A DNA stretch of 34,213 nt, taken from the NCBI GenBank assembly GCA_947857085.1, contig CANUDF010000012.1:1-34213 (forward strand). Direction: 5' to 3'. Position numbers and translations under genes: made by a program. The notes under the pieces are model-generated. The model saw only the letters and a program-made list of their open reading frames with translations. It did no database searches and had not been told where the DNA came from. The stretch comes from Candidatus Gastranaerophilales bacterium (GTDB taxonomy: Bacteria > Cyanobacteriota > Vampirovibrionia > Gastranaerophilales > Gastranaerophilaceae). Each line of letters starts with the position of its first letter. Position 1 is the first letter of the stretch. Of the stretch, positions 22,107 through 25,528 are shown one piece after another.

Positions 22107-23231
22107 TTATAAATTAGTCAGTTTACCCATAACAACACGCTTGTCAGCACCAGTACAGCAAGGAAGATTATTAGGTATATTATAGAAAGTACAGTACCCC
22201 AGTAATGCAAAAGCCATCACTTCTTTGAAATTATTTGATATGCCGTAATCTTCATGAGTTTTCAGCTCGATATTGTCAGGCAGATAATAACGCAAAAATT
22301 TCATAAGTGCAGGGTTATATGCCCCGCCTCCGCCAACTATAACTTCATCTAACGAAATCTCAGGATAAATAAATCTTTCATAAGAAACCGCAATGGATTT
22401 TGCAGTAAGAGCAGTTACGGTTGAAATAATATCCTCCGGTTTATCCGGAGCCAATTTTAAAGCATTTTCTATATATATTGGTGAAAAATATTCACGGCCA
22501 GTAGTTTTAGGAGGCTTTTTAAAATAATATTCATCCTGCATCAGACAGTCAAGCCAGCTTTCACAAATATTTCCTAATAACGCAATTTTTCCGTCTTTAT
22601 CGTACGGCATGGCAAAATATTTTTTCATGCAATAATCAATCATAATATTTCCAAGTCCGGTGTCAAACCCGAATGTATCTAATTCCTTTGAAATAACTGT
22701 AACATTAGAAATACCTCCTATATTCTGCACCGCTGCATTTTTACCTTTAAACCATTTATCATCAGCAAAGCAAACCAGAGGTGCTCCCTGACCGCCGGCA
22801 GCAATGTCAGCCTCACGGAAATTTGAAATTACAGTGCAGCCCGTTTCCTGAGCAATTACAGAACTTTCACCGATTTGTAACGTACTTTTTAAAGATATAT
22901 TATCCAGCTTTTCATCAGCAGGAAAATGATAAATGGTTTGACCATGACTTGAGATAAAATCAGGTCTGCCAAATTCTGATATCAAAACTTTACATGCTTC
23001 TGCAAAACAGTGCCCTACTGCAAAATTCATCTGGCAGATATCTTTTATTGAACAATTACCGCTAAAAATTTGGAATAATTTTGCTCTAATATGTTCAGGA
23101 TATTTATAATTAATACCGGATATCAGCCGGCATGACAAATCAGGATAAACCTCACATAATCCTGCATCAATACTGTCGCAGGATGTTCCTGACATTAAAG
23201 CTATAATTTTTTTAGTTTCTAGTTCTTCCAT
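22107..23231 (-). CDS. anmK: Anhydro-N-acetylmuramic acid kinase
   Basis: AnmK opens and phosphorylates 1,6-anhydroMurNAc from recycled murein to give MurNAc-6-phosphate. The 374 residues carry the family marks ALMSGTSCDSIDAGL at the N-terminus, SHGQTIYHFP, the catalytic region GFDTGLGNIMIDY and VGGGGAYNPALMKFL near the C-terminus. The ATG at 23231 (MEELETKK) fits the family start. A GTG in frame at 23264 would run through a terminator hairpin and is rejected. A TTGTGT-17-TATTAT promoter ends 6 nt before this ATG, so the message is probably leaderless. No etherase (murQ) or transporter lies in the window. Confidence 0.95.
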   Translation of the reverse strand: MEELETKKIIALMSGTSCDSIDAGLCEVYPDLSCRLISGINYKYPEHIRAKLFQIFSGNCSIKDICQMNFAVGHCFAEACKVLISEFGRPDFISSHGQTIYHFPADEKLDNISLKSTLQIGESSVIAQETGCTVISNFREADIAAGGQGAPLVCFADDKWFKGKNAAVQNIGGISNVTVISKELDTFGFDTGLGNIMIDYCMKKYFAMPYDKDGKIALLGNICESWLDCLMQDEYYFKKPPKTTGREYFSPIYIENALKLAPDKPEDIISTVTALTAKSIAVSYERFIYPEISLDEVIVGGGGAYNPALMKFLRYYLPDNIELKTHEDYGISNNFKEVMAFALLGYCTFYNIPNNLPCCTGADKRVVMGKLTNL

Positions 23232-23237
23232 AAATTT

Positions 23238-23266
23238 ATAATATAAAAAAGCTTGCAGATACACAA
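23238..23266 (-). promoter_or_regulatory. Leaderless-type promoter of anmK, embedded in a terminator
   Basis: On the minus strand TTGTGT (23266-23261) and TATTAT (23243-23238) are 17 bp apart. The -10 is 6 nt from the anmK ATG. The -35 and spacer lie within the hairpin terminator of the upstream RNA unit, so anmK can be transcribed separately from that RNA. Confidence 0.45.
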
Positions 23267-23460
23267 GCTTTTTATATACAACTATCCATCTCCTAAACGT
23301 AAATCCTATTTCCTAAATAATAATATCCCTAATCAACTCAATCCCTAATTTTTTGCAGTACTACAAATTTAAATTCAATTTTAGACTGCTTATGCCATCA
23401 CCTCTGTTTCTTTCAATATACTTCTCAACCAGCTATTGTCCGGTAGCCGTTTCCTGATGA
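23244..23460 (-). ncRNA. Putative structured small RNA, about 215 nt, unknown family
   Basis: A strong promoter (TTGTCA-17-TACATT) and a strong terminator bracket a segment without a reasonable ORF. The predicted RNA begins near 23460-23457. Its 5' end can pair with its 3' region: AUCAUC (23461-23456) with GAUGGAU (23290-23284, one bulge) and AAACG (23452-23448) with CGUUU (23299-23295), leaving a purine internal loop between. A long internal hairpin closes at GCAGU/ACUGC (23389-23355). Eight GGA motifs occur, four of them in TTAGG[GA] repeats spaced 15-20 nt (23291-23349). The closing stem resembles 6S-like RNAs and the GGA repeats recall CsrA-titrating RNAs, but neither is established. It could also be a leader or riboswitch for anmK. 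Confidence 0.55.
23246..23273 (-). terminator. Intrinsic terminator of the upstream RNA unit
   Basis: AAAAAGCTTG pairs perfectly with CAAGCTTTTT (23273-23264 with 23255-23246) around an 8-nt loop, and a run of T follows on the minus strand. The symmetric arms would also work from the plus strand, but no plus-strand gene ends nearby. Confidence 0.7.
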
Positions 23461-23464
23461 TATT

Positions 23465-23493
23465 AATGTAAAACTAAGTTAAATGTTTGACAA
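23465..23493 (-). promoter_or_regulatory. Promoter of the putative small RNA
   Basis: TTGTCA (23493-23488) and TACATT (23470-23465) are separated by 17 bp on the minus strand. The predicted start is about seven bases downstream, near 23458. No gene on this strand starts before anmK. Confidence 0.6.
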
Positions 23494-23615
23494 GCAAAAA
23501 AAAATTATTATTTATTTACAATTGACCATGCCCCTAGTATTATCACGGCAAAATTCAAGTTCTTAAATCTTAATGAAGAAAATTTAATGAAATTAAGTAA
23601 AATTTAGGCATTTTT

Positions 23616-23688: not shown

Positions 23689-24630
23689 ATGAAAGAGTTC
23701 ATGTTAAATAATAAAGTAACTTATAACTTAATGTCCTTTACGGGTTTTAAATCAATGCTCTTATTTTCATATCTTCTTGAAGCTCCGCGCTCTTATGAGG
23801 AAATTAAACAATACTTTGCCGAACATCAATATCTGCATGAAACTATATCTATTGATACATTAAGAGTGTATATTAATTCTCTTGAGAGACTGGGCTGTGA
23901 GATTGTAAGAGGAAGAAAAGCAGAAGGTTCTAAATATAAACTGGTTAAACATCCTTTTGAACTTAAAATTAACGATGAACATGCTAAAAGTATTATAAAA
24001 GCTTTCAAAAGTGTCTACAAATCTATTGACGTTGAAGACCTTCTTGCTATAACAAAATTTTTTGAAAAAATTTCTGGAGGAATAGAAAATCAGGAACTTA
24101 AGGAAACTCTAAGAAATATATCCCCTCTTAAAAAAATCGATTCAGAAATTCTAAAACTTTTAATAATAGCGTGCAGAAAAAATGACGAAATTTCAATAAT
24201 GTATGATTCCCCATCTTCAGGTATAAAGAACATTGATGTCCTTGCACAAAAATTAGTTGTTGCTAATAACAAAGTTTATTTACACGGCATAAGCCCGCAA
24301 TACAAAAATACAGCAAGCTTTATTGTTTCCAGAATTAAAGAAAAACCTGTTGTTAAATTACAAAAGTCAATTAAAGCAGACATTGAACAGCTTACAATTG
24401 GCTGCGAAATATACGACAAAAATATTAATCTTCAGGATAATGAAAAAATTATTTCAAAAGATGATAAAAAACTGATAATAGAAATAACATCGGATAACAA
24501 ATTTTTGACAACTCAGAGAGTTCTTTCTTTGGGAAGTGATTGCAAAGTTTTATACCCGCAATCTTTTAAAGATGAGTTATGTTCAATCTTAAAAAAGATG
24601 AAGGAGGAATATTTTGCAGAAAAAATTTAA
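23689..24630 (+). CDS. WYL-domain transcriptional regulator, first of a pair
   Basis: This 313-residue protein has an N-terminal winged-helix DNA-binding region (about 15-85, with SIDTLRVYINSLERLGCEIVRGR), a linker, a WYL domain (about 145-225, with DVLAQKLVVANNKVYLHGISPQ followed by a conserved SRI segment) and a C-terminal WCX-like part (about 235-305). WYL domains sense ligands, and in several studied proteins they bind single-stranded DNA. It overlaps the second regulator gene by 17 bp. Pairs of this type (PafB/PafC) work as a heterodimer in the DNA-damage response of actinobacteria; the match here is in architecture only. Target genes are unknown; the dyad at 23641-23666 is a likely own site. 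Confidence 0.85.
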   Translation: MKEFMLNNKVTYNLMSFTGFKSMLLFSYLLEAPRSYEEIKQYFAEHQYLHETISIDTLRVYINSLERLGCEIVRGRKAEGSKYKLVKHPFELKINDEHAKSIIKAFKSVYKSIDVEDLLAITKFFEKISGGIENQELKETLRNISPLKKIDSEILKLLIIACRKNDEISIMYDSPSSGIKNIDVLAQKLVVANNKVYLHGISPQYKNTASFIVSRIKEKPVVKLQKSIKADIEQLTIGCEIYDKNINLQDNEKIISKDDKKLIIEITSDNKFLTTQRVLSLGSDCKVLYPQSFKDELCSILKKMKEEYFAEKI

Positions 24631-25528
24631 GGAAAAATATAATGAAAGCTGCATAAAAATATTCACACTGCTTAAACTCCTTTATGAAGATAAGGCAGAT
24701 TATAATAATGTTATGGATATATTTACAGAGGATGATGAGGAAAAACAACATGTCACTCTAAATAAATATTTAAATACTCTAAAAGTATTCGGCGTTAAAG
24801 TTCAAAAGGTAAACAATAAATTTGTTATGCAAAATACGCCTTTTTCTATGAACTTTGACCTGGATGACATTAAATCTATAAACCTTTTTGAAAAATTTCA
24901 AGAAGTACTTCCAAACGGAAAAACTAAACAGAATTTGGAGCTATTGCTCAAAAAGATTGAAGCAAGGTTTGATGACAACGCGAATAAAATATACCATTCT
25001 CTCAAATCTACAAATAACGCGGACTTTTCATTCTATTATGCAGATATTAGAGAACAAATAGAAAGATGCGAAAAGGTTTGCCAGGAAGCTTTCAAAGTAA
25101 ATATCCGCTATCTTGAAAAAAGCAAAGAAACCAATATTATATGTGATGCAAAACAGGTAATATATGACAACAAGACAGCATATTTACGCGTTTATAAAAT
25201 TAATGACAGGGAATATAAAGATTTACTAATTTCAAATATAATTTCCATATCCCAACTGCCTACCCAAAAAGGAACACTTGATACATCTCCAACTGTTGTA
25301 TATAAAATCAAAGGCAGACTGGCAAAAGCTTATAACTTAAAAGAAAACGAATATGTTCAAGAAATACTTGCTGATGGTACCATGATAATCGTAAATAAAA
25401 ATGAACCTACGGACAGTCTTCTCAAAAGGCTTATCAGATATGATTATGAATGCATAATTATCAGCCCGAAAGCAATACGCATTAAAATGATTGATATGAT
25501 AAATGCAGCTTTAAAAAATTATGAATAA
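24614..25528 (+). CDS. WYL-domain transcriptional regulator, second of a pair
   Basis: A 304-residue paralogue of the upstream protein with the same order: N-terminal helix-turn-helix region (about 8-70), WYL domain (about 155-220, with FKVNIRYLEKSKETNIICDAKQVIYDNKTAYLRVYKI) and a C-terminal WCX-like part. The start is TTG at 24614, chosen because a perfect AAGGAGG lies at 24601-24607 with 6-nt spacing; nearby ATG codons are poorer. The two proteins are clearly divergent, which fits distinct subunits of a heterodimer rather than a recent duplication. It ends 59 nt before dnaE. Confidence 0.83.
   Translation: MQKKFKEKYNESCIKIFTLLKLLYEDKADYNNVMDIFTEDDEEKQHVTLNKYLNTLKVFGVKVQKVNNKFVMQNTPFSMNFDLDDIKSINLFEKFQEVLPNGKTKQNLELLLKKIEARFDDNANKIYHSLKSTNNADFSFYYADIREQIERCEKVCQEAFKVNIRYLEKSKETNIICDAKQVIYDNKTAYLRVYKINDREYKDLLISNIISISQLPTQKGTLDTSPTVVYKIKGRLAKAYNLKENEYVQEILADGTMIIVNKNEPTDSLLKRLIRYDYECIIISPKAIRIKMIDMINAALKNYE

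Follow-up and report, generated by a model that had tools for sequence, protein, structure and literature searches.

A small RNA of about 215 nt, encoded on the minus strand between anmK and a divergent WYL/WCX regulator, almost certainly represents a real and previously unlisted RNA family of Candidatus Gastranaerophilales. The Gastranaerophilales, which are related to cyanobacteria, are uncultured and common in the gut, and no work on their small RNAs was found in the literature that we searched. In the window (viz. the whole stretch of 34,213 nucleotides of contig CANUDF010000012.1 that was analysed), positions 23244-23470 of the minus strand hold in succession a promoter, approximately 215 nt of predicted transcript and a terminator, with no sensible ORF within them, and the start of anmK (position 23231) lies past this terminator. 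The first-pass annotation of this DNA had described here an orphan RNA, possibly a new small RNA family, with a TTGTCA-17-TACATT promoter, a strong terminator and no sensible ORF, and our results bear out this description: the promoter is present (reading from 23493 to 23465) and it aligns in the relatives, as does the terminator (23273-23246), the minus strand is free of a sensible ORF, and the RNA lacks an Rfam match, occurs in 27 genera and is independent of anmK. Matches to this promoter pattern are not rare here, as 9 of them were found versus 6.1 expected by chance; thus, the promoter match by itself could be due to chance, but the promoter and the terminator both align in relatives. The RNA is encoded by an independent single-copy gene, which has its own conserved regulatory region, promoter and, in most cases, terminator. 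The features of this locus are listed in Table 1.

Table 1. Positions of the features of the small RNA locus within the window
Feature	Positions	Strand	Basis or remark
Upstream DNA TTCATTAAGATTTAAGAACTTGAATTT, part of the regulatory region	23551..23577	-	Kept upstream of the promoter in relatives
Upstream block GCATGGTCAATTGTAA	23516..23531	-	At most one mismatch in 204/286 genomes, 30/50 genera
Promoter TTGTCA-17-TACATT	23465..23493	-	Aligned; near-invariant in 12 congeners and beyond
Small RNA transcription unit, ~215 nt	23244..23460	-	Promoter, terminator and conservation; transcript ends predicted
Motif GGCUACCGGA (GGYURYCRGA in many genera)	23439..23448	-	GGCUACC invariant in 12 congeners
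Box GAAACAGAGGUGAUGGC	23394..23410	-	Shine-Dalgarno-like; AUG (23398-23396) follows after 2 nt and is succeeded by GCA and the stop codon TAA
Hairpin GCAGU...ACUGC, immediately 3' of the box	23355..23389	-	In 11/12 congeners; one pair with two-sided changes
Two UUAGGGAU motifs	23325..23348	-	Recur in relatives
Motif GAUAGUUGUA, 5' of the terminator	23277..23286	-	UAG invariant (genus alignment)
Intrinsic terminator, strong	23246..23273	-	
Likely separate anmK promoter TTGTGT-17-TATTAT, overlapping the terminator	23238..23266	-	Sequence and alignment

The region is matched in BLAST searches within the genus with E values down to 1e-29 and it is also found elsewhere in the family. An exact copy of the 17-mer GAAAHAGAGGTGATGGC occurs once per genome in 81 of the 286 genomes of the order, belonging to 11 genera, whereas the reversed 17-mer used as control gave a single match in total in the 286 genomes. 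The 17-mer is also matched 11 times in viral contigs, where the surroundings are unrelated. Matches to the upstream block GCATGGTCAATTGTAA nearly always occur once per genome and practically all of them are in Gastranaerophilaceae; a few one-mismatch matches, which lie inside genes, are due to chance. This block is a probable candidate for a regulator-binding site that is dedicated to the small RNA gene. When the upstream block was followed without making use of the box described below, it pointed to genes of this same kind also in genera in which they are not beside anmK. An 18-base form of the block retrieved 117 loci from named genomes, mostly of Candidatus Gastranaerophilales or Melainabacteria, and at least 108 of these loci contain the box. 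Two loci (L304 and L263) retain the upstream block and the promoter and have lost the box, and they constitute natural losses. The neighbours of the gene differ among genera, comprising anmK, deoB (downstream in g46) and others, with varied genes in g41 and a tRNA nearby in g6, and the terminator is usually retained; genes other than anmK follow the small RNA in g46, g6, g44, g48 and part of g41. Some other observations were made at these loci. A 3' motif, GGCURYUAGRCUU, is found near the terminator in g6, g44, g48, g49 and g51 (loci L187-L195 and L210-L217), sometimes within a strong local hairpin (L212); near-identical repeats (AAAAAAGTCCGAAGCGAAAAAAACGTAAAACAAAAAAGGACTC...) are present downstream of the small RNA in one genome (G154, locus L203); and the second ORF beside the WYL regulator (24614-25528 of the window) showed no Pfam match.

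The alignment of the relatives shows a rigid promoter and a rigid Shine-Dalgarno (SD)-like box with variable sequence in between. This box is the most conserved part of the small RNA and it had not been singled out in the first-pass annotation. It exists in two versions, GAAAnAGAGGUGAUGGC and GAAAGGAGUGAUGGC, and the order of its elements in the members is a purine-rich SD-like stretch, UG, AUG (sometimes GUG) and GGC (sometimes GGU). The cores AGAGGUG and AAGGAGUG exchange within one genus (g6; L187 versus the other g6 members). In total, 159 members from 27 genera were collected; as the box in this set was sought by pattern, part of the invariance of its core follows from the search, and the 108 of 117 loci obtained from the upstream block provide the less conditioned figure. 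The 12-mer AGAGGTGATGGC occurs once in the 1.75 Mb of the genome to which the window belongs, viz. in the box itself, and it is unique in 28 of 30 genomes. It is therefore not used as a start by ordinary genes, nor does it have a perfect complement in a shared mRNA.

A conserved peptide beginning at the AUG of the box was considered and rejected, as neither the length of the frame nor the peptide is conserved in the 159 members. A frame of two amino acids (AUG-GCN-stop) is present in 41 of the 159, while most of the other frames have 3 to about 35 codons and their peptides are unrelated; in g6, a shift of 1 nt after the start alters the peptide and leaves the RNA intact. In most cases [A/C/T]A[A/G] is the codon that follows GCN, and stops are about as frequent in it as the choice of bases gives, so that the high frequency of stops seems to be a by-product of a preference at the RNA level. 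Further, ordinary genes, of which only 4% have GCN as their second codon, have a spacing between the SD and the AUG that exceeds that of the box by 2-4 nt, and the short spacing in the box could make for poor rather than strong initiation.

In its overall fold, the small RNA is no more stable than shuffled sequences (z of 0.15; genus mean of -1.0 over 27 genera), and little conserved structure was seen beyond local hairpins, with no sign of a complex conserved aptamer fold. However, in 68 members from 13 genera, a stem of the form GGAN..NUCC encloses the box and places it in a loop. The inner pair of this stem, which covaries and was not used in finding it, is a standard pair in 61 of the 68 members as compared with 43.5 by permutation (0 of 5000), and after collapsing by genus in 24 of 31 as compared with 16.2 (1 of 5000). 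For the outer pair, significance is reached before such collapsing and lost after it. Over all genera, a box-enclosing stem is weak in the permutation test and many genera lack it; firm support for the stem is thus confined to the GGAN..NUCC members, and mainly to its inner pair. The box is less paired than the rest of the RNA in 19 of the 27 genera. The second recurrent element, GGCUACC, varies in other genera mainly by transitions, and some members are without it. The structures proposed earlier fared unevenly. Of the closing stem joining the two ends, which is poorly conserved in the alignment of the 12 congeners, the AAACG/CGUUU half did not hold, since its pairs are kept in only 3-6 congeners and it breaks within the genus, and in the AUCAUC/GAUGGAU half one pair is kept in 12 of 12 congeners but the remaining pairs are not all kept. 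The hairpin proposed at 23430-23449 does contain the conserved GGCUACC, and in this respect the proposal hit upon a genuine element. Similarly, eight GGA motifs and four TTAGG[GA] repeats can be counted as claimed, but most of the GGA motifs are not conserved and the density of GGA/AGG outside the box (0.0527 per nt) equals that in dinucleotide shuffles (0.0522 per nt; 27 genera), and therefore these repeats are compositional.

The gene anmK lacks a Shine-Dalgarno sequence and its ATG is located 6 nt past TTGTGT-17-TATTAT, a layout that is kept in the congeners; hence, anmK probably has its own promoter and gives rise to a leaderless mRNA. In two genomes, G006 (L134) and G007 (L131), most of the small RNA is deleted and the box leads straight into anmK. 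In G006, AUG-GCA-UAA is found 12 nt before the ATG of anmK, whereas in G007 the usual ATG of anmK is lost and the AUG of the box is the only in-frame ATG for this gene. The anmK start in G007 suggests that the box can recruit ribosomes.

The pairing of the box with the 3' end of 16S rRNA, whose sequence was taken from three relatives, has a mean of -19.5 kcal/mol and all 159 members are at -14.8 or lower; the corresponding values for ordinary gene starts (n=345) are a mean of -7.3 and a 5th percentile of -13.3. The complement of the box reaches into UUUCU at the 3' edge. In a scan of 16S rRNA only, the 3' end ranked first both for the box and for GGCUACC. When windows of 16S and 23S rRNA were scanned together, the 16S tail had the best mean (-18.3, sd 0.9) and was the most uniform of the top partners, but it was not unique, as the 23S windows GGGCCATCGCTCATC and GCGGTCGCCTCC were close behind (-18.0 and -17.7, respectively). 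Hence, what speaks for the ribosome is the Shine-Dalgarno character of the two versions of the box, both of which pair with the anti-SD, rather than the ranking by itself. After masking of the box, AACAAGGTAGCCGTAC in 16S rRNA ranked first of 301 (t of -4.84); however, once 23S rRNA was included several other GGTAG windows scored equally well or better. The transitions seen in GGYURYC preserve pairing to a constant partner (GGUAGCC), with G-U pairs included, and this partner of GGCUACC may be either the box itself, so that the motif forms an internal lid, or helix 45 of 16S rRNA through its 5' strand.

As the RNA carries a strong ribosome-binding sequence without a protein message, it probably acts by catching ribosomes. 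Our preferred, though still tentative and not quite evenly poised, reading is that it captures 30S subunits and thereby tunes translation, in the manner of SprF1 of Staphylococcus. If this is correct, then the expressed RNA would present the box to free 30S subunits, where GAGGUGAU or GAAAGGAG would pair with the anti-Shine-Dalgarno tail AUCACCUCCUUUC of 16S rRNA, and GCU of helix 45 might pair with the GGC of the box. By this pairing, the RNA would occupy the mRNA entry site, compete with mRNAs and block their loading, and initiation would be lowered; GGCUACC would serve either as a lid that pairs with the box within the RNA or as a second contact with helix 45 of 16S rRNA. A testable prediction of this capture model is that the box should decide binding to 30S. 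A bolder form, which we regard as doubtful, is that this dedicated chromosomal RNA silences or remodels the 30S subunit by antisense pairing with the 16S 3' end, with the box on the anti-SD tail and the 3' strand of helix 45 and with GGCUACC either on the 5' strand of that helix or in the role of an internal lid. If true, the protein factors RMF/HPF would have an RNA analogue that is conserved across a whole bacterial family.

Other explanations of the box merit consideration. Trans-acting small RNAs typically have their seed in the part of the molecule that is best conserved and most exposed, and the box, which is most conserved and in a loop, could likewise be a seed by which a base-pairing regulator recognizes GCCAUCAC(C/U)UC-like sites in target mRNAs. 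The varying positions of the core (A to G, C to U) also fit a fixed target by means of G-U pairs. However, in 28 of 30 genomes no perfect 12-nt site exists beyond the RNA itself, which argues against a shared and fully complementary target, the two versions of the box would require targets that change along with them whereas both fit the anti-SD, and Hfq was not found in the genome of the window; a regulator of this kind is thus unlikely, though it deserves to be kept in view. It is distinctly unlikely that the box is the start of a translated leader or attenuator, whose short frame would control the RNA or, ancestrally, anmK. An SD with AUG or GUG is always kept, the AUG of the box is the start of anmK in G007 and lies just before that gene in G006, anmK is the neighbour in many genera, and g10 and g42 have no terminator between the small RNA and anmK. 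These observations have to be set against a frame length and peptide that are not conserved, stops at about the frequency that base composition gives, an abnormal SD-AUG spacing, a terminator that intervenes in most lineages, and the presence of other genes downstream in the genera enumerated above.

The small RNA could also be a helper in the maturation of the 16S 3' end or in remodelling of helix 45, with the box on the tail of (pre-)16S rRNA and GGCUACC on the 5' strand of helix 45 (GGUAGCC). The first rank of AACAAGGTAGCCGTAC with the box masked, the preservation of G-U pairing to GGUAGCC by the transitions in the motif, and the extension of the box complement into UUUCU are all in keeping with this explanation, but we consider it improbable, since other GGTAG windows do equally well or better with 23S rRNA included, GGCUACC is equally able to pair with the box inside the RNA, the motif is absent from some members, and a maturation factor would be expected to be spread more widely. 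That the RNA is 6S-like, a CsrA sponge or an anmK riboswitch, as the first-pass annotation had entertained by analogy, is scarcely credible, even though the AUC/GAU pairing of the ends is partly conserved, GGA motifs are present and anmK is adjacent. In covariance-model searches, no Rfam family matched the small RNA (weak matches were seen only at a permissive threshold, with E of 0.8 and above), the loci of 20 relatives had no Rfam match at the gathering score, and the 6S model (RF00013) did not match the small RNA at E up to 10. The identity with 6S RNA is also rejected on account of the broken closing stem and because close relatives that carry the small RNA have 6S at another locus; in G002, for example, 6S is at C1:29912-30092 and the small RNA at C1:86408-86583, and the situation is similar in G010 and G011. 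In the genome of the window itself (G000, 99.6% complete) no 6S match was obtained at E up to 1, although such a match was found in 19 of the 20 other relatives that were searched. RNase P and tmRNA are likewise excluded as identities, both being at other loci of this genome. The CsrA sponge is rejected because GGA is not enriched and csrA is absent, the best score for PF02599 in this 99.57% complete genome being 12.7 bits as compared with a cut-off of 27. A leader or riboswitch of anmK is rejected in view of the RNA's own terminator and the changing genes (deoB, others or a tRNA) downstream in other genera; from this earlier idea it stands only that the RNA runs into anmK in some lineages.

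The 30S capture reading is best viewed against known systems. In the literature that we searched, the only described equivalents found were the SprF1-type RNAs. SprF1 of Staphylococcus aureus is a type I antitoxin RNA that binds ribosomes; a purine-rich sequence in it is proposed to make contact with the ribosome and to compete with the loading of mRNA, so that initiation is reduced (PMC8938821). The small RNA described here resembles it in having a purine-rich sequence with complementarity to the 16S 3' end, although its ribosome binding is something that we infer, and complementarity to the 16S tail is a criterion of the present analysis, as the cited work states only a purine-rich sequence. 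The two differ in that SprF1 is an antitoxin paired with sprG1, whereas for the RNA described here neither a toxin partner nor an overlapping convergent small ORF was noticed at the locus; it is the product of a single-copy gene of a whole family and bears an SD-AUG box, in many genera within a loop. Val-tRF of Haloferax volcanii is likewise an inhibitor of initiation and binds to 16S rRNA close to the mRNA channel (PMC8938821); however, it is an archaeal tRNA fragment and not the product of a dedicated gene. With 6S RNA (RF00013) the small RNA shares the nature of a housekeeping-like RNA gene of about 200 nt, but it differs by the lack of a match, the separate 6S locus in relatives and a closing stem that is not conserved. 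With sponges of the CsrB/RsmZ type it shares several GGA motifs, but in this case the genome lacks CsrA, GGA is not above shuffles and most of the GGA motifs are not conserved. The presence in at least 27 genera of a single-copy RNA whose conserved core is a site for ribosome binding, with no message attached, points to translation being controlled globally by RNA, and it suggests that SprF1-like RNAs may not be isolated curiosities.
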